64,000 bases of DNA from Ollibium composti. Its GTDB lineage: Bacteria; Pseudomonadota; Alphaproteobacteria; Rhizobiales; Rhizobiaceae. A model generated the notes under the pieces. The model was not told where the DNA came from. It saw only the letters and a list, made by a program, of their open reading frames with translations, and did not search any database. The DNA lies in contig NZ_SSNY01000006.1 of NCBI RefSeq assembly GCF_004801285.1, positions 1 to 64,000 of the forward strand. The letters run 5' to 3'. Shown piece by piece: positions 12,396 to 39,645 of this stretch (position 1 is the stretch's first letter; the number at the start of each line of letters is the position of its first letter). The translations under genes and the position numbers were made by a program.

Positions 12396-12436
12396 TGTTA
12401 CCAACCCGTAACATTTACTGTTACTAGATAGTAACA
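12396..12436. promoter_or_regulatory. Tandem palindromic operator between TetR gene and RND pump
   Basis: Two 18-bp palindromes of identical design lie here: TGTTAC-CAACCC-GTAACA (12396-12413) and TGTTAC-TAGATA-GTAACA (12419-12436). Their centres are 23 bases apart, about two helical turns, which would suit two TetR dimers on one face. They probably control both the regulator and the pump operon. Confidence 0.8.
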
Positions 12437-12575
12437 TCTGCTGTCGCAAGTCAAGATCAGACTGAGAAAGGCGGCGCACCGCATGGTGCGAAGCAGGCCT
12501 TTTTGCGTCCCGGCTCCAGGGGGCGTCCTGACTTGCGAACGATGGCTGACGGCGCCGGACTGCAAGGATCGACCC

Positions 12576-15719: not shown

Positions 15720-15732
15720 TCGGAGTAAAACC

Positions 15733-16893: not shown

Positions 16894-17283
16894 CAGGGCG
16901 GCGGCGTACACCCGATCCGCCTCGTTTTCACATGAGAGGACGAGGCAAAGCTGACTTTTGTCAACGACCCCACGCTGGACGATCCCGCCGCCCTGTGCGA
17001 TGCCGACCTCAACGGCGGCACCCGCCGCGCCATCAGCCTCCACGAGGCGCGGCTATCGATCAGGCTACGTTCGGTGCCTTCGCTAGCCTGGTGTCTCGGC
17101 AAATAGGCCCCTCGCCTGCGCCGGATTTGATTGCCGCGCTGTCCACGCAGTTTGAGAAGATTTTCCCGATCCTGCCGGAAGTGGGAAATGCCGTTCTTTG
17201 TCAGCGGGCGCGGCATTCCCGATTTTAGGGGCAGAAGGTCCGCGCTGTCCGCGGTCGTTCATCCGAACAGGCAGGCAAACATC
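16894..17283. other. Intergenic region before the MetQ-type gene; possible gene relic
   Basis: About 390 bases lie between the efflux and ABC-transporter genes. Around 17050-17230 a plus-strand frame (DQATFGAFASLVSRQIGPSP onward) reads like protein but lacks a start or recognised domain, so it may be a relic. A weak stem (CCTCGT...ACGAGG, about 16919-16944) is present. I could not match it to a known SAM riboswitch. Confidence 0.35.
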
Positions 17284-18132: not shown

Positions 18133-18159
18133 GCGCGCCCATCCGCCGATAAACCGACT

Positions 18160-18191
18160 GCTCCGGCCTGCGCCGACCTGCAGGCCGGAGC
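18160..18191 (+). terminator. Perfect 12-bp stem-loop between metQ and metN
   Basis: GCTCCGGCCTGC (18160-18171) pairs perfectly with GCAGGCCGGAGC (18180-18191) around an 8-base loop. It sits in the metQ-metN gap. Such hairpins often protect or attenuate transcripts, so that the binding protein is made in excess over ATPase and permease. No U-run follows, so full termination is unlikely. Confidence 0.6.
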
Positions 18192-18252
18192 GTCCGCATT
18201 CGATGAACGCAACGGCCGCCCGCCATCCGGCGGTCGCCTCGAAAGGAACGCC

Positions 18253-19368
18253 ATGCCGGTTGCCGACGCAGGACTTCTGCCGCCCGCTCCCGTCGCCGAG
18301 CGGCTGGCGGCCGACGCGTTTGCACCCGCCCCGTCCAACCCGGCGGGCGATGTCGTGCGCCTCACCGACATCCGCCGCAGCTTCGGCGCCACGGCGGCGC
18401 TGAACGGCGTCTCGCTCAGCGTGCGCAAGGGCGAGATCCTCGGCATCATCGGCCGCAGCGGCGCCGGCAAGTCCACCCTCATCCGCTGCCTGAACGGGCT
18501 GGAGCGGCCGGATTCGGGGCAGGTTCTCATCGAAGGGCGCGACACCACCAGGCTGTCGGAACGCGAGTTGCAGCCGCTGCGCCGGCGCATCGGCATGATC
18601 TTCCAGCATTTCAACCTGCTTTCGGCCAAGACCGTGGCGGACAACGTCGCGCTGCCGCTGAAGATTGCCGGCCAATCGCGGCGCGAGCGGCTGCAGCGGG
18701 CGGCGGAACTCCTCGATCTGGTCGGCCTGGCGGAAAAAGCGGGAAGCTACCCCTCCGCGCTGTCGGGCGGCCAGAAGCAGCGCGTCGGCATAGCGCGGGC
18801 GCTGGCGGCGCGGCCGGCCCTGCTGTTGTCGGACGAGGCGACTTCGGCGCTCGATCCGGAAACGACGCGGTCGATCCTGGCGCTGCTCAAGGACATCAAC
18901 CGCCGGCTCGGCCTGACCATTGTGCTCATTACCCACGAGATGGAGGTGGTGCGCGCGATCGCCGACCGCCTCGTCGTCATCGACGCCGGCCGCATCGTCG
19001 AGGAAGGGCCGGTGTGGAAAGTGTTCGCCGAGCCGCGCTCGCACATCACGCAAAGCCTGCTCGAGGCATCGCGGCCGCGCCTGCCGCCGGCCATCGCCGG
19101 GCGGCTTTCCGACGTGCCGACCGGCGAGGCGATCCTGCGCATCGATGCGGCCGGCGAAGCGGCGGAGGCGCCGTTCCTGGCGCAACTGGCGGCGGCGGTG
19201 CCGGGCGGCTTCCGGCTGATCCACGGCGGCGTCGACCACATCCAGGATCATCCGGTGGCGAGCCTCTTCCTCGGCGTGGCGGCCGCGCATGCGTCGGAGG
19301 CCGTCGCCTTCCTGCAGGCCCGCGCCGTCAAGGTGGAACTGATCGGCCATGTCCAAGACGATGATTGA
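18253..19368 (+). CDS. metN: Methionine-type ABC transporter ATP-binding protein
   Basis: The 371-residue cytoplasmic ATPase has Walker A GRSGAGKST near residues 67-75, a Q-loop (MIFQHFNLL), signature LSGGQKQRVGIARAL and Walker B LLLSDEATSALD. The C-terminal about 80 residues form a NIL-type regulatory domain, which in MetN lets cytoplasmic methionine inhibit transport. An N-terminal extension of about 30 residues before the ATPase core is unusual. The gene overlaps metI by 20 bases. GAAAGGAACG precedes the ATG at 18253. Confidence 0.9.
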   Translation: MPVADAGLLPPAPVAERLAADAFAPAPSNPAGDVVRLTDIRRSFGATAALNGVSLSVRKGEILGIIGRSGAGKSTLIRCLNGLERPDSGQVLIEGRDTTRLSERELQPLRRRIGMIFQHFNLLSAKTVADNVALPLKIAGQSRRERLQRAAELLDLVGLAEKAGSYPSALSGGQKQRVGIARALAARPALLLSDEATSALDPETTRSILALLKDINRRLGLTIVLITHEMEVVRAIADRLVVIDAGRIVEEGPVWKVFAEPRSHITQSLLEASRPRLPPAIAGRLSDVPTGEAILRIDAAGEAAEAPFLAQLAAAVPGGFRLIHGGVDHIQDHPVASLFLGVAAAHASEAVAFLQARAVKVELIGHVQDDD

Positions 19369-20005
19369 CCTCTTCCTGCGCTCTCTGTGGGAGACGATCC
19401 TGATGACCGGCGCCTCCGGCTTCATCTCGCTCGTCGCCGGCCTGCCGCTGGGGCTGGCGCTGATCGCGACGGAGCGCGGCGGCATCGCCGAGAACGTCTG
19501 GCTCAACCGCCTGCTGGCCGCCATCGTCAACGGCTTCCGCTCGGTGCCCTTCATCATCCTGCTTGTCGCGCTGATCCCGCTGACGCGGCTGATCGTCGGC
19601 ACCTCGATCGGCACATGGGCGGCGATCGTGCCGCTGTCGATCGCCGCCACGCCCTACTATGCGCGCATCGCCGAAGTGTCGCTGCGCGAGGTCGACCATG
19701 GGTTGATCGAAGCCGCACGCGCCATGGGCGGCAACCGCTGGACGATCGTGCGCGAAGTGCTGGTGCCGGAGGCGCTGCCCGGGCTGGTCGCCGGCTTCAC
19801 CGTCACGCTGGTCACGCTGGTAGGCGCCTCTGCCATGGCCGGTGCGATCGGCGCCGGCGGCCTCGGCGACCTCGCCATCCGCTATGGCTACCAGCGCTTC
19901 GAAACCGCGGTCATGACCTGGGTGGTGATGGTGTTGATCGTCCTCGTCTGCGCCCTCCAGTGGCTGGGTGACAGGCTGGTCGCCAGACTGGACCACCGCG
20001 GCTGA
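19349..20005 (+). CDS. metI: Methionine-type ABC transporter permease
   Basis: The 218-residue membrane protein has about five hydrophobic helices and the EAA loop near residues 130-150 (EVDHGLIEAARAMGGNRWTIV), which contacts the ATPase. Its length and the VALIPLTRLIVGTSIG stretch fit MetI. It overlaps the end of metN by 20 bases, so translation is coupled. Together with metQ and metN it forms a complete importer operon. Confidence 0.9.
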   Translation: MSKTMIDLFLRSLWETILMTGASGFISLVAGLPLGLALIATERGGIAENVWLNRLLAAIVNGFRSVPFIILLVALIPLTRLIVGTSIGTWAAIVPLSIAATPYYARIAEVSLREVDHGLIEAARAMGGNRWTIVREVLVPEALPGLVAGFTVTLVTLVGASAMAGAIGAGGLGDLAIRYGYQRFETAVMTWVVMVLIVLVCALQWLGDRLVARLDHRG

Positions 20006-20136
20006 ACGCGAGGATGGCGCGGCGTTCGCTTCGAAGAAGAAAAACAAATTGAACTTTGACGAAGCAAGATCAGGGCGGCCATTGTTCTGTTATCTGCATT
20101 TTTCAAGCAGATCCTAAATTTCTCATGGCATCGACC

Positions 20137-20510
20137 TCAAAGAGGAGACGGTAGCCAGTCTCGATCCACGAGAGTATCGAGACGACCGGCCCATTCGCTC
20201 CAGGATCCGTCGTAAAGCGCACCCTGCGGCAGCCCGGCCAGGCACATGCCGAGCGTCAAGAAACGCGCACGCAATTCTTCCGGTGATCGGAAAGTGCCGT
20301 CAGGACAGAGCAGGTCCGTATAGGGCACGCTTACGGTACCTGGGATATGACCGCTACGCATTCCCACGCGCGGCTCGGAGGCCAGGCCGGAAAACGCGCG
20401 GCTGCATAAGCTTCCAGTACTAGCTCGGCCGGGCTGCGCGCCGTTATCGAGATATTGAAGGCATGACCGTTGCCATGCTGCTTCGGGCATATCTGACGAT
20501 GCTCAGCCGC
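20137..20510 (-). pseudogene. Decayed thiosulfate/3-mercaptopyruvate sulfurtransferase (SseA-like)
   Basis: Parts of the second rhodanese domain remain: VLEAYAAARF in one frame, then EPRVGMRSGHIPGTVSVPYT in another, then GALYDGSWSEWAGRLDTLV. The middle, including the catalytic CGSGxTA loop that should precede GALYDGSW, is missing. The first two parts are in different frames (break near 20400). The N-terminal domain is absent. This is therefore a relic of an SseA-type enzyme, not a working gene. It lies between metI and a TetR-type regulator. Confidence 0.75.
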
Positions 20511-21165
20511 TTGAGCCATACCGTGCCATCATCATCATGACGGCTTCCTCAACGACCCTCTGGCATTCGGCCGAAGAAGGCGGTTCCCCAACGCCGACCA
20601 CACGCAGCCACAGCAAGGGCTCGTTGAGCAGACCAAGAAACTGGCGGGCAGCAAGCTCAGCATCGGGGATGTCGAGAGACCCGTTCTCATTGATCTGTTG
20701 CAGATAGTCGATCAGGGCACGCATCGCTGGCGCCTTCCCGGCCTCGAAGAAATTGCGCGGCAGGTCGGGAAAGCGCATGCCCTCGCTGATGACCATGCGA
20801 AGGAAGGCGACCGCCACGGGCGGCTCCCAGAATTCGACCACAGCCCTGCCGAGCCGGCTGAGACCGACGGCGGGATCGCCTAGCGCCTCCTTGTCGGCCG
20901 CGATCCCAACCACGGGGAAATCCCGCCAGACACGCTCGACGGCAGCCGAAAACAGCGCCTCCTTACTCTCAAACTGATTGTAGACCGTTCGCCGTGCGGC
21001 GCCCGACTCTTTCGCGACAAGGTCCATGCTCGCGCCCTCATAACCGTGGGCGAGGAAGACACGCGTCGCTGCTTCCAGAATGGCATCCCGCTTAGGCATC
21101 TCCGCGCGAGCGGCGGCCTTGCTTGAGGAAGCGGTCTTCACCGAACGGGCGCGCGAAACGACCAA
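20503..21165 (-). CDS. TetR-family transcriptional regulator
   Basis: The protein, about 220 residues from a TTG start at 21165, has a short basic N-terminal tail, then the TetR HTH (RDAILEAATRVFLAHGYEGA, then AARRTVYNQFESKEALF) and a ligand-binding domain with the TetR_C_33/AefR-like ending. The TTG is chosen because AGGAG lies 9 bases upstream; ATG 21099 is an alternative with poor spacing. It is divergent from the carboxymuconolactone-decarboxylase-like/MFS operon, with two palindromes between, so it most likely represses that operon and itself. Confidence 0.85.
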   Translation of the reverse strand: MVVSRARSVKTASSSKAAARAEMPKRDAILEAATRVFLAHGYEGASMDLVAKESGAARRTVYNQFESKEALFSAAVERVWRDFPVVGIAADKEALGDPAVGLSRLGRAVVEFWEPPVAVAFLRMVISEGMRFPDLPRNFFEAGKAPAMRALIDYLQQINENGSLDIPDAELAARQFLGLLNEPLLWLRVVGVGEPPSSAECQRVVEEAVMMMMARYGSSG

Positions 21166-21187
21166 GGCAATCTTCTCCTGTTGACTG

Positions 21188-21233
21188 CACTGCACTGTGC
21201 AGTGTAATTACTCCAACACTGCACTGTGCAGTG
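21188..21233. promoter_or_regulatory. Tandem palindromic operator of the TetR/MFS divergent pair
   Basis: The same 17-bp palindrome, CACTGCACTGTGCAGTG, occurs twice: at 21188-21204 and 21217-21233, with centres 29 bases apart. It sits between the TetR gene and the divergent operon, with the second copy directly before the ribosome site at about 21236. This is a strong candidate TetR operator. Confidence 0.8.
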
Positions 21234-21248
21234 CATAGGAGATACACG

Positions 21249-21665
21249 ATGTTAGACGAAATTGCCACCACGCCCCGCTCAGATGAACGCTTCAAGCAGG
21301 GTTGCGAGCGGTTTATGGCCGTCACCGGATTTCCGGCGCAGGCCTTTCTCGACAACCTCAAGGACAGTTCTCCCGATTTCGGACGCTATCTCATCGAATG
21401 GGTCTTCGGCGATGTCTATGGCCGCGACGACCTCGATCTCAAAACCCGAGAACTCGTGGTCATAGCGGCTGGCGCCGCCCTCGGGGCAACCGGTATCGAC
21501 GTCCTCAAATTTCATATTCCCAATGCGATCCGCGTCGGTGCAACCCGCGAGCAGGTTTTCGGCGCCCTTATCCAGGTTTCCATCGTTGCCGGCATCCCGA
21601 TCGCGTTGGCGGCAATCACAGCGGCAGGACAAATCCTGTCCGATGTTAACGGAGCCGTCGAATGA
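21249..21665 (+). CDS. Carboxymuconolactone decarboxylase-like protein
   Basis: The 138-residue all-helical protein resembles the CMD family (DLDLKTRELVVIAAGAALGA, then HIPNAIRVGATREQVFGALI). The AhpD-type CxxC redox pair is absent; the region reads ATGIDVLKFHI. It is therefore closer to the gamma-carboxymuconolactone decarboxylase branch than to peroxidase-like AhpD. Its substrate is unknown. It starts at 21249 with TAGGAG upstream, and its stop overlaps the MFS start (ATGA), indicating coupled expression under the TetR regulator. Confidence 0.75.
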   Translation: MLDEIATTPRSDERFKQGCERFMAVTGFPAQAFLDNLKDSSPDFGRYLIEWVFGDVYGRDDLDLKTRELVVIAAGAALGATGIDVLKFHIPNAIRVGATREQVFGALIQVSIVAGIPIALAAITAAGQILSDVNGAVE

Positions 21666-22873
21666 CCGCGGCGCCATCCAATCACAATCTGGGGACGCCA
21701 GTGATCGTCCTCATGGCGGTCGCTTCGGCGCTTACCGTGGCCAACGTCTATTTCAATCAGGCGCTGCTTCCGGCCATCGCGACGGATTTCGGCATCAGCC
21801 CGCGCGAGGTCGGGCTTATCGCCACGTTGTCACAACTCGGCTACGCTCTCGGCATCGTTCTCGTCGTGCCCCTTGGTGATCGAAACGAACCGCGATCTCT
21901 CGTTCGCATTCTGCTCATCGGCGTTGCCGCCGCGTTGGCGGCGGCAGCCTCTGCCCCGAAGCTGAGCATCCTGGCGGGGCTGAGCATCGTCATTTGCATG
22001 GGCACCTGCGTTCCGCAGATCGTCTTGCCGCTGGCGGCCGGCTTGACCCGTCCCGAACGGCGCGGGCGCGTCATCGCGTCGGTGCAGACGGGCCTCGTGC
22101 TCGGCATTCTGCTCTCGCGCACACTGGCAGGCATAGGTGCCAACAGCTTTGGGTGGCGCCCGGTCTACATCATCGCGGCCGGCCTCATGCTCTCGTCGGC
22201 GATCGTCCTGCCGATGGTGCTGCCCCGGCGAGGCGCTCTTTCGGCAACGGTGGCCTATCTCACGCTGCTGGGCTCGCTATGGGGTCTTGTCTGCCGTGAA
22301 GCGAAGCTTCGCCTGTCTTGTCTGCTCGGCGCCGCGATCTTTGCTGCCTTCTCGGCCTTCTGGACGACGATTCCGTTCCGGCTGCAACAACCCCCGTTCA
22401 ATTCCGATCTCGCGGGCGTCGGCTACTTCGCCCTATGGGGCGGCATCGGCGGGTTGGCCTCGCTGTTCGCCGGCGGGCTGATCGATCGTTTCGGGCAGGA
22501 TCGAGTAAGTGTGGCCGCCGTCGTGCTCGCGGCAGCGAGCATCGTCCTCGGCGCCATCTGGCCAAGCAGCTACATAGCGTTGGTCGCCAGCGGAAACCTG
22601 CTCAGTTTCGCGCTGTCTGCCGGCCAGATCGCCAATCAGGCACGCATCTTCTGCCTCGGCGCGGAAATCCGCAGCCGCCTCAATACCATCTACATGGCCT
22701 CGACCTTCGCGGGCGGCGCCATCGGCAGTGCCGGAGCGGGCATTGTATGGGCCTCGCACGGCTGGACCGGCGTTTGCGGCTTCGCTCTCATCTGCGTGGC
22801 GGTGGCCGCCGCCTCCCTTGCGGGAGCGGGGATCACCACTCTTCGAACGCGCAGCGCCAACGGCGAAGCGTGA
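21662..22873 (+). CDS. MFS transporter (putative efflux permease)
   Basis: The 403-residue protein has about twelve membrane helices. The MFS loop motif between TM2 and TM3 is seen as VVPLGDRNEPRSLV, and an A-rich NVYFNQALLPAIATDFGISP precedes it. The type is that of YgaY/CynX-like drug:proton antiporters. It is coupled by an ATGA to the upstream CMD-like gene and probably exports the compound that the TetR regulator senses. It converges with the LysR gene, 11 bases away. Confidence 0.85.
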   Translation: MTAAPSNHNLGTPVIVLMAVASALTVANVYFNQALLPAIATDFGISPREVGLIATLSQLGYALGIVLVVPLGDRNEPRSLVRILLIGVAAALAAAASAPKLSILAGLSIVICMGTCVPQIVLPLAAGLTRPERRGRVIASVQTGLVLGILLSRTLAGIGANSFGWRPVYIIAAGLMLSSAIVLPMVLPRRGALSATVAYLTLLGSLWGLVCREAKLRLSCLLGAAIFAAFSAFWTTIPFRLQQPPFNSDLAGVGYFALWGGIGGLASLFAGGLIDRFGQDRVSVAAVVLAAASIVLGAIWPSSYIALVASGNLLSFALSAGQIANQARIFCLGAEIRSRLNTIYMASTFAGGAIGSAGAGIVWASHGWTGVCGFALICVAVAAASLAGAGITTLRTRSANGEA

Positions 22874-22884
22874 ATCGCCAGCTG

Positions 22885-23808
22885 CTATTTGCAATATGTT
22901 GATTGGCCAGGATGCCAGGAGAGGCGCTCACTGGCGCGCAGCAGGAAATCCCTGACGTAAACGACGCGCGGATGGCGCAGTGCCCCCTTGTTCCAGGCGA
23001 GGTACAGGGTATTGACCGGAGGCTCTTGCAAGGTCGGCAGCTCCACAAGTTGCCTGGACGACAGCGTGTCTTCGCAAAGGTAGTCCGGCAACACCGTCCA
23101 TCCAGCACCGGCCTTGGCCATCTCAAGAAGGAGACGCAGATCGGGAGCGGTCGCGGCGGCCCTCATGTCCGGGGTTATACCGAACACATGCCGGAAGAAC
23201 TCGCGGATGAGGGGCAGGTGCTCGTCATAGGCGACGCAAGGCAGGTCGCGCAGCAGGAGGTCGGTCACGGTCCGGGCCTTGACTCGTTCCGCAATGGTGG
23301 GGACCGCCACCAGCAACAGCCGCTCCCGACCAAGTTCGGCAAAGCCGTATGCCTTATGCCCGGGAAGCGAAGCCGTAACCGCAAGGTCAGCGTGCCCTTC
23401 ATCCAGCGCGGCATATATATGCTCCCGATTTCCGGTCTGGATGCGTAACCGCAAACCTTCCGCGATTAACGGCGCCAGCGCCGGTGCCACGCGAAGCGAG
23501 AGATACTCGGCCGGCCCGGCCAGATGCAGCGTGCCGGTGAGATGGGCGGAGCGGGCCTGAGCGGCCACCATGGTCGCTTCGATCCCGTCGAGGTTCTCGG
23601 CGATAGCCCGGGCGAGGTCGTCGGCCGCAGGCGTCGGCGCGACGCCGCGCGCCTTTCGGATGAACAGCGGTTTGGCCAGCATCGTTTCCAGCGATGCTAT
23701 ATGCGCCGAGGCGGCCGGTTGGGTGATCCCAAGCCGCTGAGCGGCACGCGTCAGCGAACCCGCCCGATAGGTGTCAAGGAATGTGCGCAGATAGATCAGG
23801 TGATTCAT
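22885..23808 (-). CDS. LysR-family transcriptional regulator
   Basis: The 307-residue protein begins with a LysR winged HTH (LRTFLDTYRAGSLTRAAQRL, then GITQPAASAHIASLE), followed by a periplasmic-binding-protein-like effector domain (from about residue 90). The ATG at 23808 fits the family N-terminus; the frame is open to 23883 but that part is not family-like. Its targets are not evident: no divergent enzyme gene lies directly upstream, only a 340-base gap. It may control the convergent MFS gene or genes elsewhere. Confidence 0.88.
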   Translation of the reverse strand: MNHLIYLRTFLDTYRAGSLTRAAQRLGITQPAASAHIASLETMLAKPLFIRKARGVAPTPAADDLARAIAENLDGIEATMVAAQARSAHLTGTLHLAGPAEYLSLRVAPALAPLIAEGLRLRIQTGNREHIYAALDEGHADLAVTASLPGHKAYGFAELGRERLLLVAVPTIAERVKARTVTDLLLRDLPCVAYDEHLPLIREFFRHVFGITPDMRAAATAPDLRLLLEMAKAGAGWTVLPDYLCEDTLSSRQLVELPTLQEPPVNTLYLAWNKGALRHPRVVYVRDFLLRASERLSWHPGQSTYCK

Positions 23809-24151
23809 TGCACGTCGCCAAATGGCATGCGTGGCGAGCCTGGTTCGATTGAATGAACTGAAGATCCGCCTTGGCCGAGGCACCTCGGGGGATCATAAAT
23901 CCACCGTCTTTTGGAGAAAGCAGCCGAGGCCTGTGTTCCCGCATAACCAACGGCGTCGCCGATGGGCAAGTTCACGCCGGCCGACGTCGACGGGCTCGAC
24001 GAGGGAACGGTGTCGGACAACGCGCGGACGGTGCCGACGACCGCATCCGAGAGGAGATAGCTGCACCGGCCGGGAGGCGCGACGGTCGAACCTGGAAGAT
24101 GCCGCCGCTCACGGCACGCGCCCGCACCTTCAATCGCGAGGAGCCTTCGGC
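23809..24151. other. Intergenic region with no recognised gene
   Basis: About 340 bases lie between the LysR and universal-stress-protein genes. A 32-codon frame from about 23960 lacks a ribosome site and known motifs. The stretch must include the LysR promoter. I see no further structure. Confidence 0.4.
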
Positions 24152-24601
24152 TCAGCGCACGACCAGCACGGGTGTATGGCTGTGCGCCAGCACCTCCGCG
24201 GTCTGGCTTCCCATCAGCATTCGGCTGACGCCCCGCCGCCCGTGGGAAGCCATCACGATCAGGTCGCAGTCATAGCCCGCGGCGGTTTCGAGGATCGCCG
24301 TGGCAGGATGGGCGTTTGCTACGTGAACCGTATTCGCGTCGAGCCCCAACTTGCCTGCCTCGGCCTTGACCGCCGACAGGATTTCAGCCGCGAACCGCTT
24401 CTGGCCCTCGTCGTATCGCTCGTAGTCGACAGGGCTTCCGACCCATCCGGAGCTTGTTGTCGCACCTTGTATGGGAAACCGTTCGGTGGCGATCACGACC
24501 GTCACTTTGCTGCCGAGGGCCTTTGCCAGAGACAGGCCCTGCCCGACGCCGCGCTGTGCCAAGTCTGAGCCATCGGTGGTGATCAGGATATGGTTGTACA
24601 A
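24152..24601 (-). CDS. Universal stress protein (UspA family)
   Basis: The 149-residue protein has the Usp fold: N-terminal YNHILITTDGSDLAQRGVGQ, a central variable part, and the ATP-binding C-terminus with MASHGRRGVSRMLMGSQT and ending TPVLVVR. It probably binds ATP and helps cells during stress in the cytoplasm. The start is a TTG at 24601, favoured by GAAGGAG 7 bases upstream; the frame upstream of it is not Usp-like. It stands alone next to decayed gene fragments. Confidence 0.88.
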   Translation of the reverse strand: MYNHILITTDGSDLAQRGVGQGLSLAKALGSKVTVVIATERFPIQGATTSSGWVGSPVDYERYDEGQKRFAAEILSAVKAEAGKLGLDANTVHVANAHPATAILETAAGYDCDLIVMASHGRRGVSRMLMGSQTAEVLAHSHTPVLVVR

Positions 24602-24855
24602 GGCTCGTCTCCTTCCGTACCGATCTCCCACTACGGCAAGAGGTAGGCATCCGCCGCCTATCCGACAAGCGGGTTTGCAGGATGTGGCGATACTCAAGCA
24701 AGCAGCCGCTTGCTGTACCCGTCCAAATTTCAACACGCCCGTCATTTCCGTAATGAATGCCCCGTGCGACGGGCTGTCATTTTGACAGCGGTGCCTCAGG
24801 GTCTACCATCCCGTTCGGTGCGGAGCCATGCGGGCTGCCGGCGCCGGAAAAGGAA

Positions 24856-25032
24856 ATGACGATGTCCGAAGGAATGTATCCGACCTCCACCACAGAGCTT
24901 GCAAGGAAGCGTCGGGAACTCGCGCCCGAAACGGAAACGGCTTTCCAGGCGTTCAGCCAGAAGATTTTCGCGGAGGGCGCTTTGGCTTGCGTGTGTCCGG
25001 GACACAATTCAGCATTCAACGAACGAGGGTAA
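24856..25032 (+). pseudogene. N-terminal fragment of an AhpD/carboxymuconolactone decarboxylase-type gene
   Basis: The 5-prime part (MSEGMYPTSTTELARKRREL and ETETAFQAFSQKIFAEGALA) matches the typical start of stress-linked AhpD-like proteins, which should continue with a CxxC-bearing domain. Here the frame changes to unrelated residues (CVCPGHNSAFNERG) and stops. AAAAGGAA lies just before the ATG at 24856. It is probably a deletion relic. The loss seems shared with the next fragment. Confidence 0.5.
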
Positions 25033-25033
25033 A

Positions 25034-25160
25034 ATGAGGGAACTTGTCGTCACCGAATTCATCAGCGTCGATGGCATTCCGAGGTGGAGAAATTGCCGGA
25101 CGTGACATGGAACGATGGGATGAACAGGTTCAAGGAGGAGGAACTTGCCGATCCCCATTC
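25034..25160 (+). pseudogene. Fragment of a RibD/dihydrofolate-reductase-like gene
   Basis: MRELVVTEFISVDGI at 25034 is the characteristic start of small DHFR-like (RibD C-terminal domain) proteins. After a deletion and frame change a second family piece, WNDGMNRFKEEELA, appears at about 25105-25150. The remainder of the domain is missing. It is a relic. Together with the fragment just before, it marks a decayed edge next to the polysaccharide region. Confidence 0.5.
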
Positions 25161-25217
25161 CATAGGGAACCACAATCCCGACACGGCAGGCACCGTGAGC
25201 GGCGCTGGAATCGCGCG

Positions 25218-26195
25218 TCAGCTCCGCCAGGATGCTTCGACGAAAATCTCTCGCGCCCGGGAAAGAACGCCCTTCGTCCGGAACAGGTGGCCGATCGGAG
25301 GCAGGATCGCCAGACGCGGCAGGAGACCGAAAGCAAGCCGGAACAGGCCCGCAGCCTCGCGATACTTGGCTCGAACGAGGTGCGACACGGCGGACCAATA
25401 GGCGTCGCGCGCAAGGCTCGCCCGCGCGAGCGCACGCAGCCTGTCGGATTGGCGCCCGTCCATGGCCCCGGTCGACAGGAACTTGTCGATCGCACCGTAA
25501 AGGGATTCCAGAAAGAGCCTGAAATCCTGCCAGTAAGCGCTGGAAATATTGTTGCTGTGCTCCTGCTGGATTCCCTGGACGGCGTCCGTCCTGGCGACAT
25601 CTCCAAGCGCGGCCAGCCGCATCAGCATCTCGCGATCGCAGGTGAACGGCAGATCTTTCCTGTAGTGGCCGGCGCGTTTCTGGATGGTGGTGCGGACCAC
25701 CGTAAAGTCGACAAAACCTTGCCGGGGGTGGCGGCAGATATTCTCGATGAATGCCGGACCGGAAACGACCGTCCAGACTGCAGGCTTCGCGGCGGACAGT
25801 TCGTCCGGCACCGCATTTCCGGCGCTGACGATATGCCCTCTGCCTTGCGCGACGGACACGGCGGGATTTTCTTCCAGGATGGCGATGGCGCGCTTCAGGC
25901 TGCCGGGCGTGAGCATGTCGTCGGCGCACAGTATCGTGAAGTAGTCGGCCTGCGCCTCATCGATCCCTTCATTGAAGGAGGCGACAACCCCGACATTGAC
26001 CGGATGCGCGATGATCCTGATCCGAACGTCCGTCGCGGCCAGAGCGCGGGCCACTTCGAGACTGTCGTCGGTCGATGCGTTGTCTATGACAAGCACCCGC
26101 ATGTTTTCGACATCCTGCGACAGCACGCTCCCGATACAGGCGGGCAGGTAGCGCCCGTATTGATAGTTCGGAATGATGACGTCGATGCTGGACAC
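25218..26195 (-). CDS. Glycosyltransferase family 2 protein
   Basis: The 325-residue protein opens with a GT-A signature (SSIDVIIPNYQYGRYLPACI, residues 2-21), a nucleotide-binding LVIDNASTDDS, and the metal-binding region FTILCADDMLTPG near residue 88. It would add a sugar to a lipid-linked intermediate at the cytoplasmic side. The start is one of two GTG codons, 26195 or 26201; 26195 has better spacing (9 bases) to GGAGG. It is divergent from the Cys-rich gene and forms the left border of the second exopolysaccharide block. Confidence 0.82.
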   Translation of the reverse strand: MSSIDVIIPNYQYGRYLPACIGSVLSQDVENMRVLVIDNASTDDSLEVARALAATDVRIRIIAHPVNVGVVASFNEGIDEAQADYFTILCADDMLTPGSLKRAIAILEENPAVSVAQGRGHIVSAGNAVPDELSAAKPAVWTVVSGPAFIENICRHPRQGFVDFTVVRTTIQKRAGHYRKDLPFTCDREMLMRLAALGDVARTDAVQGIQQEHSNNISSAYWQDFRLFLESLYGAIDKFLSTGAMDGRQSDRLRALARASLARDAYWSAVSHLVRAKYREAAGLFRLAFGLLPRLAILPPIGHLFRTKGVLSRAREIFVEASWRS

Positions 26196-26423
26196 TGGCA
26201 CGCTCCTCCCTGTCGCGGATCGTCTGCCGGTGGCGCTGGCGTGCGGACGTCGATGCGCCGACTGACCTCTGTCGTAGAGACGCCGAGACCGTCCGTCCAC
26301 TCCGTCAAAGGTGGATGGGGGTTACCGCTAATTTCGGGATCGGTCAGCCGAATCCAGGGGTGGTATCGTCCGGCATATGAAATCGCGATGAGTTCCCGAA
26401 CGTGCTGGAAAACGGGGGAATGC

Positions 26424-27515
26424 ATGTCACTGAGAGCCGGCGACTGGGTGGAAGTAAGATCCAGAGAAGAAATCCTCAGCACCCTCGACAGGAACGGCCG
26501 GCTTGAAAACCTTCCTTTCATGCCGCAGATGCTTCAATATTGCGGCAAGCGCTTTCGCGTCTACAAGCGCGCGCACAAGACCTGCGATACGATAAACTTC
26601 GCCGGTGGGCGCAAATTGCCGGGCGGCATCCACCTGGAAAACCTGCGCTGCGACGGCGCCGCCTTCGGCGGCTGCCAGGCGGCGTGCCTGATCTTCTGGA
26701 AGGAGGTATGGCTGAAGCCCGCCGACCAGCCGGACGACGCAGCCGTCATGCCGGCGGCGACGGGCTGCACGGAAGCCGACCTGCTTGCAGGCACGCTTGC
26801 CGCGGACCAGCCGTCGGTCGGCGGCCCGCGATATTCATGCCAGGCCACCGAGGTCCTGGAGGCGACCACCCGCCTTCCCTGGTGGGATGTGCGCCAATAC
26901 GCGGAGGATCTCACATCCGGAAACGCCAGCGCGTGGCGCCTGCTGACGGGGTCCATCTACGCCGCGGTATTCACCCTGTATTGCTACCTGCCCAGTTTCG
27001 GCCTCGGCGGCCAGGCGAAGCGCTTCACCCGCGCCTATGACGCAGCCCAACGCCTTTACGGCGGCATTCCCTTTCCGCGCTATCGGGGGACCATCCCGGC
27101 GGACCAGCAGGCCCCGAGCGCCACGCTGGATCTCCAGCCCGGCGAACTGGTCAGGGTCAAATCCTATGAGGACATCCTCAGCACGATCGACGTGAACAAC
27201 AGGAACCGCGGCCTGTCCTTCGATGCGGAGATGGTTCCCTATTGCGGTCGGACCTTCCGGGTCCGCTCGCGCGTGACCACCTTCGTCAACGAGAAGACCG
27301 GGCTGATCAACAGGCTCCGGGGACCGGCCGTCATACTGGACAACGTCTGGTGCAATTCACGCTACAGCGACTGTCGCATGCAGTGCCCGAGGGCAATTTT
27401 CCCCTGGTGGCGCGAGATATGGCTCGAAAGGGTGACCGGCGACACATCCAACACAGGAAGTCAGGCGCGGGCGGACCGGGAAGAGACACGCACGCCTGTT
27501 GCGAGCGCCTCATGA
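26424..27515 (+). CDS. Duplicated cysteine-rich protein of unknown function, coupled to a flippase gene
   Basis: The 363-residue soluble protein has two copies of one domain. Copy A spans about residues 4-95 (GDWVEVRSREEILSTLD, QYCGKRFRVYKRAHKTCD, RCDGAAFGGCQAAC, FWKEVWL). Copy B spans about 238-345 (GELVRVKSYEDILSTID, PYCGRTFRVRSRV, WCNSRYSDCRMQC, WWREIWL). The Cys pattern C-x(6-7)-C-x3-C plus an upstream YCG suggests metal or Fe-S binding or disulfides. A middle region of about 140 residues links them. No signal peptide is visible. The stop overlaps the flippase start (ATGA). I recognise similar uncharacterised proteins from polysaccharide settings but no function. The ATG 26424 follows CGGGGGAA. 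Confidence 0.75.
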   Translation: MSLRAGDWVEVRSREEILSTLDRNGRLENLPFMPQMLQYCGKRFRVYKRAHKTCDTINFAGGRKLPGGIHLENLRCDGAAFGGCQAACLIFWKEVWLKPADQPDDAAVMPAATGCTEADLLAGTLAADQPSVGGPRYSCQATEVLEATTRLPWWDVRQYAEDLTSGNASAWRLLTGSIYAAVFTLYCYLPSFGLGGQAKRFTRAYDAAQRLYGGIPFPRYRGTIPADQQAPSATLDLQPGELVRVKSYEDILSTIDVNNRNRGLSFDAEMVPYCGRTFRVRSRVTTFVNEKTGLINRLRGPAVILDNVWCNSRYSDCRMQCPRAIFPWWREIWLERVTGDTSNTGSQARADREETRTPVASAS

Positions 27516-29005
27516 AGGACGACATCCTGTCCGCCAAACGCGGCCACCACAGCCTCAAGGGCGAAGCCGTTCAAAGCGGCCTCGCCCGCATCGTGAGCCA
27601 GGGGGTGAACCTGATGCTGCGGGTGGGCTATATCGCCATACTGGCGCGGCTGCTCAGCCCCAGCGATTTCGGCCTGGTCGCGATGGTGGTTGCGCTCACC
27701 GGCATCTTCGACGTCTTCACCACGGCCGGGCTTTCCTCAGCGACCATCCAGAAGGACGAGATCTCGCATGCCGAGGTCTCGGCGCTGTTCTGGGTCAACA
27801 TACTCGTCGGGACCCTGCTGATGCTTTTGTGCGCGGCAAGCGCCTACTTCATCTCCGGCTTCTACCACGACCCGCGCCTGATCTGGATCACCGTCGCGAT
27901 CGCTCCGGGTTTCCTGCTCAACGCGGCAGGCGTGCAGCATGCCGCCCTGCTGGAGCGCAATCTGCGCTACGTCACCTTGAGCGGGATCGAAACCGGCGCG
28001 CTGTGCGCGGGCGTGGTGACGGCCGTCCTGCTGGCATTGAGCGGCTACGGCTACTGGGCGCTGATCGCCCCGACCCTCGTCTCCCCGGCTGTCAGCAGCC
28101 TGGGCTGCTGGATCGCAACGGGATGGATCCCCGGCCTGCCCCGGCGCGATGCCGATATCCGCTCGCTCCTGCATTTCGGCGGGGTCGTCACGCTGAACAA
28201 TCTTGTCGTCTATGTCGGCTACAACGCCGAGAAGGTCCTGCTCGGGCGGTTCTGGGGCGCCGGCTCGCTCGGCCTGTATACCCGCGCCTTCCAGCTCATC
28301 GGCATTCCGACGGCCACGATCAACAGCGCCGTCGGCGCTGTCCTGTTCTCCGCCTTGTCGCGCATTCAGAACGATCCCGCACGCCTGCGGAGCTTCTACC
28401 TCAAAGGCTACTCGATCGTCATCGCGTTCACCGTGCCGATCACGATGTTCTCCTTCGTGTTCGCGCACGAGATCGTCACGATCGTGCTCGGCCCGAAATG
28501 GACGGAGGCGGCGACCATCTTTCGCCTGCTCGCCCCGACCATCCTGGTGTTCGGGATCATCAACCTCACCTATTGGCTGCTGATCGCGACCGGCAAACAG
28601 AAGCGCAGCCTCTACATGGCCTTCGTCATCGCCCCGCTCGTCATCACGTCCTACTGCATCGGAATCTCCTTCGGTCCGGAAGGGGTGGCCCTGAGCTACT
28701 CGACGGCCCTGGTGCTGTGGCTCTATCCGCACCTGGTCTGGAGCCTGCACAACACGCCGGTCTCGGTAGGGGACCTGCTCGGAACGATCGTCAAGCCGTG
28801 GATAGCGGGAACGGCTGCCTCGGCCGGCGCGCTGGCCGTCCAGCACTATCTCGGTCCGGAATCTCCGGCGCTTCTGCGGCTCATTGCGGGAGGCGCGGTG
28901 CTGGCGGGCATATACGGTTTCGTCCTGCTGTTCGTCCTTGGACAGTTGACCCTGTTCCGGGACGTGCTGCTGAGCTTTCGGCGAGAGGCGCGGGCCGGCG
29001 CGTGA
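27512..29005 (+). CDS. Lipopolysaccharide/exopolysaccharide flippase (Wzx type, MOP superfamily)
   Basis: The 497-residue membrane protein has about twelve to fourteen hydrophobic segments and a Wzx/PST layout. Its start (SLKGEAVQSGLARIVSQGVN onward, then LARLLSPSDFGLVAMV) is like the WzxC/ExoT branch, and NAEKVLLGRFWGAGSLGLYT is a typical mid-protein motif. It would move the completed lipid-linked repeat unit across the inner membrane for polymerisation. Translation is coupled to the upstream Cys-rich gene by ATGA. A GT gene follows 68 bases later. Confidence 0.88.
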   Translation: MKDDILSAKRGHHSLKGEAVQSGLARIVSQGVNLMLRVGYIAILARLLSPSDFGLVAMVVALTGIFDVFTTAGLSSATIQKDEISHAEVSALFWVNILVGTLLMLLCAASAYFISGFYHDPRLIWITVAIAPGFLLNAAGVQHAALLERNLRYVTLSGIETGALCAGVVTAVLLALSGYGYWALIAPTLVSPAVSSLGCWIATGWIPGLPRRDADIRSLLHFGGVVTLNNLVVYVGYNAEKVLLGRFWGAGSLGLYTRAFQLIGIPTATINSAVGAVLFSALSRIQNDPARLRSFYLKGYSIVIAFTVPITMFSFVFAHEIVTIVLGPKWTEAATIFRLLAPTILVFGIINLTYWLLIATGKQKRSLYMAFVIAPLVITSYCIGISFGPEGVALSYSTALVLWLYPHLVWSLHNTPVSVGDLLGTIVKPWIAGTAASAGALAVQHYLGPESPALLRLIAGGAVLAGIYGFVLLFVLGQLTLFRDVLLSFRREARAGA

Positions 29006-29073
29006 AGCCACCCGGACCACCGCGACCGGGGTCATAGCCCGGTGTTGGAAATCAGAACTCTCCGGGGGGAGAA

Positions 29074-30318
29074 ATGGCAGTCCTGGCAATCGTCCACAGC
29101 TATCCCTACGACGCGTTCTTCGGCGGCGACGGAGCCTACGTCCAGGCATTCGGGCAATATCTCCTGCGAACGGGCCACGAGGTCCACGGGTTGGTATCCG
29201 ACATGACGCGCGGGAGAAGAAATCCGATCGGCAGGAGCGTCTACGAAATAGAGAAATATTCTTCGTGGCAGGTCCGCAACAGCCTCCGATTGAACCGAAG
29301 GACGTTCCTCGCGGCGGAGCAGCTTGGTCCGGCAAATCTGGCCGGATTGCTTCTTGGAAAGCGCGCCGCGCCGGCCGCCGGGATGACCGAGCAGGATTTC
29401 CCCGCAGCGGAAATCCGGTGGGTGGAGGAACGCATCGAGGCGCTCGGGCCGGACGCGGTGATCCTGTTTCACGACGCCGTGCATTTCGCTCCTTTCCTCG
29501 CGCGCAACGGCCACCGGATCTTCTCGCTCGTCGGCCACCTCAAGCAACGCCACGGCACCTCGCACCGAAAGCCGCAGCGAAGGGCAGACGAGACCGCGGC
29601 AGGGGAAACGGGATTGGTCCGCTCGCTGAAGGCGGCCGATTGTGTCGGCCTCAACAGCATGGACGATGTATCATATGCCCACGACCGACTCGGCATAAAG
29701 CGCGTGATCTCGCTCGGCATGGGTTACGGCGCCTACAGGAAGCAGTCCGACAGCGACGAACCCGTCGTCCTCTTTGTCGGAAACGCGACGACGCCCAATC
29801 ATGCCGCGCTGTCGTGGTTCCTGTCGGAGGTCTGGCCGTCCGTCCGGACCGCATGCCCGACGGCAAGGTTCCGGGCCGTCGGAACCGCAGCCCTCGCGCC
29901 CGAGATCGCGTCGGTGGACGGTTTCGAGCGCGTGGGGCCGCTCCCAGACCTCGCGCCCGAATACCGGCGCGCCCGGCTTGTCGTGGCTCCGCTCGTCTCC
30001 GGCTCGGCCGGCGTCAAGGTCAAGGTGGCCGAGGCGATGTCCTACGGCCGCCCGCTGGTGACGACCTCGATCGGGGTCGATGCTGGCGACGCCAATCAAC
30101 TCGACGAAGGAGCGATCGTGGCGGACGGCGCCGCCGACTTCGCGCGAGCGGTCATCGCGCTGCTGAGCGATGCGGACCTCCGGCGCCGGAAATCCGAAGG
30201 AACAGCGCGTGTCTTTGCCGAGCTCTTTTCCTGCGACGCATGCTACGGCCCGTTCCTGTCCTGGCTCGGCAAGGATAGCCGGGCGGCGGCAGACAGGCCG
30301 TCGCCGGCATTGGCCTAG
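29074..30318 (+). CDS. Glycosyltransferase family 4-like protein
   Basis: The 414-residue protein has a GT-B fold. The N-terminal acceptor domain starts VLAIVHSYPYDAFFGGDGAY. The C-terminal donor domain includes VVLFVGNATTPNHAALSWFL and VVAPLVSGSAGVKVKVAEAM, followed by GRPLVTTSIGVDA. The last two are characteristic of Glyco_trans_1_4 proteins. A strong GGGGGGAG ribosome site precedes 29074. It probably extends the repeat unit. It overlaps convergently by 4 bases with the glycoside-hydrolase-like gene. Confidence 0.85.
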   Translation: MAVLAIVHSYPYDAFFGGDGAYVQAFGQYLLRTGHEVHGLVSDMTRGRRNPIGRSVYEIEKYSSWQVRNSLRLNRRTFLAAEQLGPANLAGLLLGKRAAPAAGMTEQDFPAAEIRWVEERIEALGPDAVILFHDAVHFAPFLARNGHRIFSLVGHLKQRHGTSHRKPQRRADETAAGETGLVRSLKAADCVGLNSMDDVSYAHDRLGIKRVISLGMGYGAYRKQSDSDEPVVLFVGNATTPNHAALSWFLSEVWPSVRTACPTARFRAVGTAALAPEIASVDGFERVGPLPDLAPEYRRARLVVAPLVSGSAGVKVKVAEAMSYGRPLVTTSIGVDAGDANQLDEGAIVADGAADFARAVIALLSDADLRRRKSEGTARVFAELFSCDACYGPFLSWLGKDSRAAADRPSPALA

Positions 30319-31763
30319 TTCGCCGCCTGGGCTTCGGGGACCGCCTTTGTGTTCTCGGCCAGATAGGTGGAATATTTCGTCGCGAACTCGCTGGACGTCA
30401 CGAGGCCGAGGGCGACGGACTCGCGCGTCATCACTCCCGTCCTCAGTTGATCGGAGTAGATGTTAAGCCCCGCCCCGTCGGCCTCGCGGCCCAGAAGCAG
30501 ATGGTAGACGAAACGGACGTAGGCGCGGTCGGCAAGGCCGACGATGGCGTATTTCTCCATGAATTCCCGCGTCTGCATGAGTTGGACCATCATGTTGGGA
30601 ACGTTGACCTTGCCCTCGTCCAGCGCCGCGGACCAGCGTTCGATGTCCTCGGCATTCGCCTTGCGCCCAAGGATCAGGCAATGGGAGAAACTCACCTTGC
30701 GGATTGTGAAGGTGACGATCCCGTCGCTGTCGGCGAGGTCGCAGTCGCGCCGCGGCTCACGCATGGGCTGCGGTCCGCGGATCAGGTCGCGGGCGGCGAC
30801 GTAGGCGGCTTTGGGTCCCGCCGCACGCCACCCGTGTTCGGCCGAGCCGACGAGACGGACCAGCCCCATCGACGCCTCGAAGTCCGGCGCCCAGTAGGTT
30901 TCGTCCAGGAGCTCGTAAACATAGGCGGCTTCCACCTTGTACCTGCGTTGCAGCGCGCGCAGCCGCATCATCGACTGCGCCAGCCCCTCGGCCTGCTGCT
31001 GCTCGCCCGAGCGGCTGCCGTATGGATTGTTGAATTCCGTGACCCAGATCGGCTTGCCGTAGCCGGCGAGCACCTTGAAGGCGGGCTCGGGGTCCTCTCC
31101 GTACATATGCCATACCGAGATGTCCCACGCGATGCCGTCGCGCTTCATCCGCTCGAAGGCGCCGGTGTGACCCCATCCCGCGGTGCCGATCGCCTTGCGG
31201 ATGCCGGGATCGACTTCCGTCATGCCGTCGGAAAGTCCCTTCAGGACGGCGCTAACCTTGGCCCAGCGCGGACCGAAGTAATCCAGCGCGCTGGCCCCGC
31301 CGGCCAAGCCCCATGCACAGGGATATGTGGTGCCGTCGTCGCGCTTCTCGCAGGGCTTGATGATGGCGTAGTTCTCCATCTCGTTGCCCAGCTCCCAGGT
31401 CCGGATCTCGCCCTTGAACCGGGAGCCCAGCGCGACGGCGAGCGTGCGCGCCTTGCCGTAGAGGTCTTCGACGCTGTCCTTGTCGAGGTCGATGTCACCG
31501 GGCGTGATGACAGGCAGCACCTCTATCCCTCGCTCCCTGCCCTCCGCCAGGACTGTGGCAAGGCTGTCCGCAGACGAAGCGTCGGAGACGTTGACGCGAT
31601 AGGACTTCATGCCAAGGTCTTCGAGGTAGTCGAACTGGCGCTCGATCGCGATGCCCGGATAGGCCGTGATGGGATGGCCGTTGACCCCCCATAGAAGATC
31701 TGCGGCGGCGGGCGAGGCCAAAGAGAGGAAGCAGGCGGCTGCGGTCAGTACGGGTTTCAACAT
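30315..31763 (-). CDS. Secreted glycoside-hydrolase-like protein with DUF4214 region
   Basis: The 482-residue protein has a signal peptide (residues 1-21, cut near PAAADLL), a TIM-barrel hydrolase domain with clan GH-A features, and a C-terminal part with DUF4214-like repeats (FSHCLILGRKANAEDIERWS and FVYHLLLGREADGAGLNIYS). The acid/base Glu is probably in TWELGNEMEN (near residue 127) and the nucleophile in IWVTEFNNPYG (near 243). It could trim or release the exopolysaccharide in the periplasm or outside. DUF4214 is frequent in exported polysaccharide-related proteins. The substrate is unknown. Confidence 0.75.
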   Translation of the reverse strand: MLKPVLTAAACFLSLASPAAADLLWGVNGHPITAYPGIAIERQFDYLEDLGMKSYRVNVSDASSADSLATVLAEGRERGIEVLPVITPGDIDLDKDSVEDLYGKARTLAVALGSRFKGEIRTWELGNEMENYAIIKPCEKRDDGTTYPCAWGLAGGASALDYFGPRWAKVSAVLKGLSDGMTEVDPGIRKAIGTAGWGHTGAFERMKRDGIAWDISVWHMYGEDPEPAFKVLAGYGKPIWVTEFNNPYGSRSGEQQQAEGLAQSMMRLRALQRRYKVEAAYVYELLDETYWAPDFEASMGLVRLVGSAEHGWRAAGPKAAYVAARDLIRGPQPMREPRRDCDLADSDGIVTFTIRKVSFSHCLILGRKANAEDIERWSAALDEGKVNVPNMMVQLMQTREFMEKYAIVGLADRAYVRFVYHLLLGREADGAGLNIYSDQLRTGVMTRESVALGLVTSSEFATKYSTYLAENTKAVPEAQAAN

Positions 31764-31800
31764 TGCGGCACCTTTGGTTCTCAGCGATCGGCGCCCGTCC

Positions 31801-33078
31801 TCATCGAAGATCGAACACGCCGAAATCGGCGTCGACCTCCACCATGAGTTCGAGGTATTTCCAGGCGATCCAACGCCAGGAATAACGGCTCGCGCGGATT
31901 TCCCCCTTGGATATCAGCCATTCGCGCAAGGTCGGGGCGAGCATGAGCAGGCGAACCTTCTCGGCCCACGAAGGAAGGTCGTCGGGGTCGGCGTAGAGCG
32001 CGCAGTCGCCGCAGATTTCGGGAAGGCACGGAGAGGTCGAGGCGATCACCGGGCAGCCCGAGGCCATCGCCTCGACGGCGGGGAGGCCGAAACCCTCGAT
32101 GCGGGACGGAAAGAGAAAGCAAAGCGCGCCCTCGAGCGCTTTCTTGAAATCGTCGTCGCCGATGCGGCCGAGAAGGACGATGTTGTCCGGCACGTTCGGC
32201 GCGTAGCGGCGAATCGTGGCCTCGTCGACATCGCCCATCATCCACAGGTCGAGGCCGATCTCGTCGAGGAACGGGGCCAGCCTGACGAGCAACTCGGTGT
32301 TCTTGTAGTCCTGGTCCCGCCTGCCGAGGCATAGGACATAGGGCCTGCCACCGGCGACGTTCAACGACGATCCTTCCGCGTTCCAGCGCTGCGCGTGCTC
32401 GCTTCCGTTATAGGTGACGACGATGTTGTCCTCGGGCGCGATGCCGAACGCCACCAGATGGCTGCGCGAGAACTGCGAGACGGTGGTGATGCGGGCCGCG
32501 CGTCTACCGAGCGCTGGCAGGATCAGGCGATGGGCCCATCGGAATCCCCAGCCGTAGCTTGCCGGCATCAGCCTCGTGTGCATGTCGTGGATGCAGGCGA
32601 TCTGGTGCCTGACCGCCACGGGCGCGAGGTTGCAGAAGCTCAGCAGCCCGCCCGGCACATGCCGGGGCAGTTGCGCCTGCACCCAGAACTGCGGCAGCCG
32701 CGGCCTGCTGAACTCGGGAACGAGCCGCACGGGAATGGTGTCGAGAGGCAGAGGTTCGGAAAGCGGCCGCGGCACGACGAGATCGATATCGAGGTCGCGG
32801 GCGAGCGGATGGCCTTCCAGAATGAGGGCGTCGAGCGCCATCGTGACTTCGCGGGCATAGCGCGCCACGCCGGTCGGCCTCAGCGTCGTGAAGTCGCCGT
32901 TTATGGTCCAGCGCCGCCGCTGCGCTTCGCGCTCCGTCCGCGCCGGTCGGGGATGGCCGATCAACACCTTGGCTTTTGCCACGAACGAATCCACCAGCGG
33001 GGTGTCGCCGTGATGCCCGTTCAGTTCCGAGGGCATTCCCAGCGGCATCGACTTTGCCCTGACCTCGGGCTTGCCCAT
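31801..33078 (-). CDS. Glycosyltransferase family 4 protein
   Basis: The 425-residue protein is a GT-B enzyme. The donor-binding half contains YVLCLGRRDQDYKNTELLVR and the E-x7-E motif in FPSRIEGFGLPAVEAMASGC. Its middle start (RRWTINGDFTTLRPTGVARY) is closely similar to the start of the divergent gene at 33272. The type is that of mannosyltransferases such as those of polymannose O-antigens. An extra N-terminal part of about 55 residues precedes the common region. The ATG at 33078 follows GGGAAG. Confidence 0.87.
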   Translation of the reverse strand: MGKPEVRAKSMPLGMPSELNGHHGDTPLVDSFVAKAKVLIGHPRPARTEREAQRRRWTINGDFTTLRPTGVARYAREVTMALDALILEGHPLARDLDIDLVVPRPLSEPLPLDTIPVRLVPEFSRPRLPQFWVQAQLPRHVPGGLLSFCNLAPVAVRHQIACIHDMHTRLMPASYGWGFRWAHRLILPALGRRAARITTVSQFSRSHLVAFGIAPEDNIVVTYNGSEHAQRWNAEGSSLNVAGGRPYVLCLGRRDQDYKNTELLVRLAPFLDEIGLDLWMMGDVDEATIRRYAPNVPDNIVLLGRIGDDDFKKALEGALCFLFPSRIEGFGLPAVEAMASGCPVIASTSPCLPEICGDCALYADPDDLPSWAEKVRLLMLAPTLREWLISKGEIRASRYSWRWIAWKYLELMVEVDADFGVFDLR

Positions 33079-39477: not shown

Positions 39478-39645
39478 GGGACGAGGCCCGTTCGAATTCG
39501 GTCTCCCCACTTTTCCAAGGCCACGGCATTGGAGCAAGAACAGCAAAGGAGGTAGCGGAAATCTCCAACTCTATCCTCCCTAATCCCAAGGAATGATCCC
39601 CTTGGCGATTTTGGGGGTTCCGGCAGGAAGGCCGGAGCGATGTGT

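Follow-up and report, generated by a model that had tools for sequence, protein, structure and literature searches.

The subject of this analysis is a gene on the forward strand (26424-27515) of a 64,000-nucleotide stretch of DNA from Ollibium composti (contig NZ_SSNY01000006.1, positions 1 to 64,000; hereafter the window). The gene encodes a protein of 363 residues (P0001, here called c0), in which two predicted SH3-like repeats are arranged in tandem and joined by a helical linker, an architecture common to 45 complete relatives. Copy A spans residues 1-102 (26424-26729) and contains the invariant residues Cys54, Cys76, Cys84 and Cys88. The linker, residues 103-234 (26730-27125), carries helices at 156-164, 170-192 and 195-212 and the invariant Cys139, and copy B, residues 235-340 (27126-27443), contains the invariant Cys310 and Cys321. 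An earlier interpretation made from the letters of the DNA (the sequence-only reading) had described two copies of one domain, both with a YCG motif and a W[RK]E-[IV]WL end, an extra cysteine in copy A and a helical-looking linker. These features are all present: YCG lies at residues 39-41 and 273-275, the ends read WKEVWL (92-97) and WREIWL (329-334), copy A has five cysteines (40, 54, 76, 84, 88) against four in copy B (274, 310, 317, 321), and the linker is predicted by AlphaFold2 to be mostly helical. The next gene on the same strand encodes a Wzx-type flippase of the multidrug/oligosaccharidyl-lipid/polysaccharide exporter superfamily (497 residues, 27512-29005; PF13440 E 5.6e-79, 265.9 bits against a cut-off of 23). 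As had been noted, the stop codon of c0 (TGA, 27513-27515) overlaps the flippase start (ATG at 27512), with four nucleotides shared. No Rfam match was found at 24000-32000.

The internal duplication of c0 is genuine, since a profile-profile comparison aligned the two copies with an E-value of 4.2e-32 (probability 99.9, 34% identity), whereas alignments of either copy with the linker gave 0.17 and 0.34. The two copies are thus true duplicates, far beyond chance, as had been proposed. The parallel drawn between their cysteine clusters was borne out in part. Both spacings exist (C76-x7-C84-x3-C88 in copy A and C310-x6-C317-x3-C321 in copy B), but they are out of register: when the copies are aligned, C76 falls opposite C310 and C84 opposite C321, the latter two each lying eight residues ahead of a conserved tryptophan, and C88 has no partner. 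As C317, which completes the cluster in copy B, occurs in no more than 28 of the 46 sequences aligned, the shared C-x6/7-C-x3-C spacing is a coincidence of the window protein and some related sequences.

Seven cysteines (Cys54, 76, 84, 88, 139, 310 and 321) are invariant in all 46 sequences of alignment A1, which consists of the 45 complete relatives and c0 itself; Cys40 and Cys274 are each present in 45. The seed patterns of the first contig scan held Cys54, Cys84 and Cys88, so that ascertainment is possible in this first set. Sixteen further relatives, fetched by profile or whole-protein searches and seven of them 36-38% identical to P0001, are free of it. After their addition the same seven cysteines were found in 62 of 62 sequences (Cys40 in 59, Cys274 in 55), near-duplicates such as L077 and L002 being included among the 62. 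The ligand set of a Cys4 metal-site protein, here Cys54, 76, 84 and 88, is therefore present throughout, some rows being near-duplicates, and such invariance is what a metal site would show in a protein of the cytosol, in support of the metal site that the sequence-only reading had considered possible. With four of the invariant cysteines, copy A has the largest share; the linker has one and copy B two, and this distribution suggests a putative Cys4 site and a putative three-cysteine site. The invariant polar residues of the family include K52, T53, K93, Q140, T142 and E331. A 19-residue Kyte-Doolittle window exceeded 1.6 in only 3 of the 62 sequences; a transmembrane protein was rejected on this account in favour of a soluble one, and c0 is probably cytosolic.

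Neither Pfam nor NCBIfam models matched P0001 at E-values up to 1, in agreement with the initial impression that no known family was at hand, and literature searches, which covered open-access papers, returned no description of the family. Scanning of genome contigs with copy A identified 48 loci, 45 with a complete gene, two cut at contig ends and one a fragment of 46 residues. They come from Alpha- and Gammaproteobacteria, Acidobacteriota, Verrucomicrobiota, Nitrospirota, Rokubacteria, Geobacteraceae, Planctomycetota and others, and the two-copy architecture is found in all 46 rows of A1. Within these groups the gene is uncommon. It was detected in 3 of 398 genomes of Pseudomonadota and in 11 of 247 genomes of the phylum of one acidobacterial member (the genome at the centre of each search being counted). 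Only the window's own genome was positive among the 199 of its family, and only the member itself among the 240 of the phylum of one verrucomicrobial member. Plasmid records yielded six matches (four Mesorhizobium, one Bosea and one Nonomuraea), five of them annotated as 'hypothetical protein' and one unannotated. No match was found in the phage records searched, and PHROGs models matched few members and weakly (best E 5e-4, for 1 of 46). The c0 family is thus real, spread over many phyla, rare and patchy.

The AlphaFold2 model of c0 built on A1 (mean predicted local distance difference test score (pLDDT) 90.4, predicted template modelling score 0.87) consists of two small beta units with helices between them. 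When the whole model was compared with known structures by a structural aligner, the repeat of Mind bomb 1 ranked first, with Z 7.0 and a root-mean-square deviation (rmsd) of 2.2 over 69 residues for copy A, and Z 5.9 and rmsd 2.3 over 70 residues for copy B. Copy A modelled alone (pLDDT 84.2) again gave Mind bomb 1 as the first match, both with the structural aligner (Z 7.2, rmsd 2.3 over 69) and with Foldseek (probability 0.99, E 0.047). In addition, the Mind bomb SH3 repeat (PF18346, SH3_15) was the Pfam family most often matched by whole relatives of c0 (9 of 46 at E up to 1, best 2.2e-4), which provides an independent sequence hint of this repeat type. A sequence search of solved structures with c0 returned nothing significant.

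In the window, c0 and its flippase lie among genes for polysaccharide synthesis. A family 2 glycosyltransferase (25218-26300, reverse strand; PF00535 E 1.2e-27) is divergent from c0, and a family 4 glycosyltransferase (29074-30318, forward; PF13692 E 1.5e-22) follows the flippase. Beyond them lie a DUF4214/glycoside-hydrolase-like protein (30315-31763, reverse; PF13946 E 2e-19), a Wza-type polysaccharide export protein of the same exopolysaccharide locus (36757-38064, forward; PF02563 E 2e-15), an initiating sugar-phosphate transferase (38680-39546, reverse; PF02397 E 1.1e-65) and a Wzz/Wzc-type chain-length protein (39646-41475, reverse; PF13807, PF02706). The locus therefore resembles Wzx/Wzy loci in its flippase, glycosyltransferases, initiating transferase, Wzz/Wzc and Wza-type genes; c0 is, to our knowledge, not among the described components of these systems. 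Across the 48 loci the recurrent neighbours were a family 2 glycosyltransferase (30 loci), a divergent cytidylyltransferase (29), a nucleoside diphosphate (NDP)-sugar epimerase/dehydratase (29), a Wzx-type flippase (26) and a PIG-L deacetylase (26). When only the 31 loci flanked by 5 kb or more on either side are counted, the numbers become 24, 22, 22, 19 and 20. These counts are approximate, as neighbouring genes were called by a simple longest-open-reading-frame rule with homology support and one representative was annotated per cluster; they include a doubtful cytidylyltransferase in L019, an outlier of 18% identity that was dropped before the genome search, and c0 could not be placed in the fragment locus L049. 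None of the five clusters was found in L040, L044, L046, L047 or L048; L040 is a contig of 3.4 kb, and in L044 the PF13440 profile scan does place a flippase next to c0.

In 24 of 31 genomes, by hand count, a PF13440 match is no more than 10 kb away from c0 (22 with more than 100 bits), where about 0.4 would be expected by chance, as calculated from 108 hits and the genome sizes. In a tree of 69 flippases, rows near c0 cluster together (10 label changes against 23.2 after shuffling, a value reached in 0 of 500 shuffles). A clade of 32 rows contains 27 near c0, three at middling distance and two unlinked, both from one genome. The linked rows of the tree were drawn mainly from one similarity cluster, which favours clustering; the PF13440 profile scan is free of this bias. 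Flippases within 4 kb of c0 occur in six phyla of the tree set. The expected recurrent pairing with Wzx or glycosyltransferase genes was accordingly observed for most members, but three loci (L024, L042 and L043) have instead a Wzt-like ATPase and a presumed membrane partner, that is, genes of an ATP-binding cassette (ABC) exporter, beside c0 or one gene away (the lack of a flippase being based on the PF13440 scan for L024 and on neighbour clusters only for L042 and L043), and several divergent loci lie among non-glycan genes. The translational coupling that had been emphasised holds for the window but is not general. Counting the window, the flippase directly adjoins c0 in 19 of 27 flippase loci; among these 19 it precedes c0 on the same strand in 9, follows it in 8 and is divergent in 2. 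The four-nucleotide overlap recurs in L002 and, by annotation, in Mesorhizobium ciceri pMc1284, and L009 has an overlap in the reverse order. Since the flippase is mostly upstream, divergent or some genes away, stop-start coupling is a local detail. By eye, a C-terminal MGQK-x2-Y-x-DL motif was seen in many flippases of the c0-linked clade and mostly not in unlinked rows (six rows were in the wrong frame).

A second group of genes that accompanies c0 would make a sugar. In the window it comprises a PIG-L deacetylase (5261-5911, reverse; 81.6% identity to the L002 protein, PF02585 match 5519-5866), a divergent glucose-1-phosphate cytidylyltransferase (5911-6837, reverse), a sugar C-methyltransferase (6732-8015, reverse; PF08421, PF08484), an RmlC-like 3,5-epimerase (8330-8857, forward; PF00908 E 2.8e-63), a DUF4910/DUF2172 protein (8930-10381, reverse; PF16254 E 4.9e-112) and an NDP-sugar epimerase/dehydratase of the short-chain dehydrogenase/reductase type (10195-11253, reverse; PF01370 E 5.1e-43). 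The limits of the deacetylase, cytidylyltransferase, methyltransferase and DUF4910 genes are tblastn match extents. Judged from these families, the module looks like a pathway to a C-branched cytidine diphosphate (CDP)-sugar. The same set of genes recurs in M. ciceri pMc1284 (L077) and in genome G071 (L092). Sugar module and c0 are contiguous in L077; in the window they are separated by about 12400-24700, where the genes (efflux pump, transporter, regulators) seemed by eye to be unrelated to polysaccharides.

Of 31 c0 genomes, 27 have the cytidylyltransferase: in 22 it shares a contig with c0, no more than 26 kb away, and in 5 it is on a different contig. It was also found in 2 of 14 control genomes. 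A profile of this enzyme matched 7 of 398 Pseudomonadota genomes at E-values up to 1e-80, four with more than 430 bits, and all three c0-positive Pseudomonadota genomes are among these four. The fourth, G071, belongs to the genus of the window and has no c0 in its genome. It keeps a syntenic sugar cluster from the PIG-L through the family 4 glycosyltransferase genes. No close relative of the c0-linked flippase was present in the 57 kb searched, the sole flippase match being 24% identical. The converse situation also occurs, as c0 is found without the module cytidylyltransferase in G400, G423, G424 and G425. On a Bosea plasmid c0 is divergent to a flippase; the flanks examined, 9 kb to one side and 15 kb to the other, carry no further annotated glycan gene, and the cytidylyltransferase was absent from this 190-kb plasmid record, to which the search was confined. 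In G139, c0 and the cytidylyltransferase occur with no PF13440 match nearby.

Taken together, the reading that we favour, tentatively and at somewhat less than even confidence, is that c0 is a cytosolic and probably non-catalytic adaptor with structural metal sites, which would serve polysaccharide assembly or export. Each copy would fold as an SH3-like barrel of the kind seen in the Mind bomb repeat. Cys54, 76, 84 and 88 of copy A most likely hold one structural metal ion, with zinc as the first choice, and a second site is likely to be made up of three cysteines, Cys139 of the linker and Cys310 and Cys321 of copy B. A helical hairpin would hold the two barrels, and these would bind short segments of partner proteins; candidates are the flippase or ABC exporter, the glycosyltransferases and the cytidylyltransferase or PIG-L enzymes. 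In this way c0 might keep the exporter close to the enzymes that make its unusual sugar. The comparison with Mind bomb (PDB 4xi6, 4xi7 and 4tse) extends to the SH3-like barrel, that is, to the fold class and not to the family. According to the title of entry 4xi7, a repeat-containing piece of Mind bomb binds a peptide. No other Mind bomb domain was detected in c0 by Pfam, and c0 adds the invariant four-cysteine set and the helical linker. In any case, c0 defines an unnamed and strongly conserved family that accompanies flippases and an uncommon sugar module in different phyla. Should it prove to act together with the exporter, bacterial polysaccharide assembly would gain a new component, and one with clear residues to test.

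A number of observations weigh against this reading, some concerning the fold and others the neighbourhood. The Mind bomb rows (Z 6.8-7.2) are followed at a distance of less than one Z unit by those of ribosomal SH3-like proteins (best 6.3), so that such values for copy A may reflect a shared fold only; for this reason the assignment of the copies to the SH3-like barrels by modelling is firmer than that to the Mind bomb family. Copy A alone had no Foldseek match at E-values up to 0.001, the window protein had no match to PF18346 at E up to 1, and copy A segments matched DUF6504 (4 of 46, best E 0.01) about as weakly as PF18346 (3 of 46, best E 0.019). The best Foldseek E-value for the whole model (5e-4) went to the SH3-like domain of nitrile hydratase beta chains, but that superposition is poor (template modelling score 0.17, rmsd 14.6), Pfam gave P0001 no match to this family at E up to 1, and no alpha subunit was seen among ten annotated recurrent neighbour clusters. 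As to the neighbourhood, 7 of 31 genomes (G139, G404, G412, G416, G418, G419 and G424) have no PF13440 match within 10 kb. Some of these are on short contigs; G139 is a single contig, and the missing match is therefore no effect of assembly. Planctomycete relatives in L046 (10867-11856) and L047 (1386-2132) adjoin a gene for adenosine 5'-phosphosulfate kinase, and the alphaproteobacterial L048 adjoins ScpA/ScpB and dCTP deaminase genes. The seven most divergent acidobacterial relatives, for which, as for these three loci, the search covered a few neighbours each, are mixed. L083 adjoins hemerythrin/ScdA, acyltransferase and GlmS-like genes, and L087 resembles it by gene sizes only; L081 adjoins a PepSY-type membrane protein gene, with a cytochrome c gene close by, and L085 a photolyase gene. 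L086 has an aminoglycoside-phosphotransferase-like neighbour, the single searched neighbour of L084 has no family, and L082, with a polysaccharide deacetylase gene, has glycan-like surroundings. Among the neighbours searched, a rule that c0 is always beside glycan genes thus fails for L046, L047, L048, L081, L083 and L085, while core members mostly comply. The sequence-only reading had counted homologues scattered with no link to polysaccharide genes as evidence against itself; such scatter is found for several divergent members and not for the core. Mirror-tree correlations were unstable with the choice of rows (0.23, 0.53 and 0.73 for c0 and flippase; 0.63, 0.31 and 0.70 for c0 and cytidylyltransferase), and as the rankings change with them, the method was dropped as a test of whether the flippase or the sugar enzymes are the closer companion.

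An active site made of the conserved KTC, FMP and WK residues is equally conceivable, and the principal alternative is that c0 is an enzyme, carrying out a metal-dependent tailoring of the CDP-sugar or of the lipid-linked oligosaccharide before export. This is considered unlikely, although not negligibly so. It would account for the invariant polar residues and for the way in which c0 tracks the module cytidylyltransferase in Pseudomonadota, but the tracking is broken in both directions, by the four genomes and the Bosea plasmid record with c0 and no module gene and by G071 with the module and no c0, and SH3-like barrels are rarely catalytic. The seven invariant cysteines in their 4 + 3 split would also suit a redox or Fe-S protein, in which clusters or a thiol switch sense oxidation or pass electrons and so gate polysaccharide output, and the hemerythrin/ScdA, PepSY-type and cytochrome c genes near L083 and L081 point the same way. 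However, such neighbours are confined to the divergent clade and do not extend to the glycan-linked core, and no Fe-S family or fold was seen among the family and structure matches; this role appears improbable. The sequence-only reading had considered possible a metal or Fe-S site or a redox role linked to polysaccharide assembly. In a stronger form of this idea c0 would be a dedicated metal- or Fe-S-bearing partner of the exporter, whose tandem Mind-bomb-type repeats with their seven-cysteine sites sense metal or redox state and gate the flipping of lipid-linked sugars; we know of no such gating layer described for Wzx/Wzy systems, and we regard the proposal as very doubtful.

It is likewise improbable that c0 is a general regulator or assembly factor that binds nucleic acid or protein, being present at polysaccharide loci through linkage on mobile clusters and having no direct part in export. 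Its fold is also like that of ribosomal and KOW-type SH3-like barrels, L048 lies in housekeeping surroundings, and the gene is patchy and in places plasmid-borne. Against mere linkage stand the joint absence of c0 and its linked flippase from the otherwise syntenic cluster of G071 and the occurrence, in six phyla of the tree set, of a flippase no more than 4 kb from c0. Remnants of c0 lie near sugar-module genes in L049 (7092-7229, a frame of 46 residues) and L089 (17868-18266, a 34.6-bit match), and point to loss of c0. In addition, one contig from a Bradyrhizobium metagenome-assembled genome (L014) carries two c0 genes in opposite orientation, at 3841-4962 and 7204-8313.

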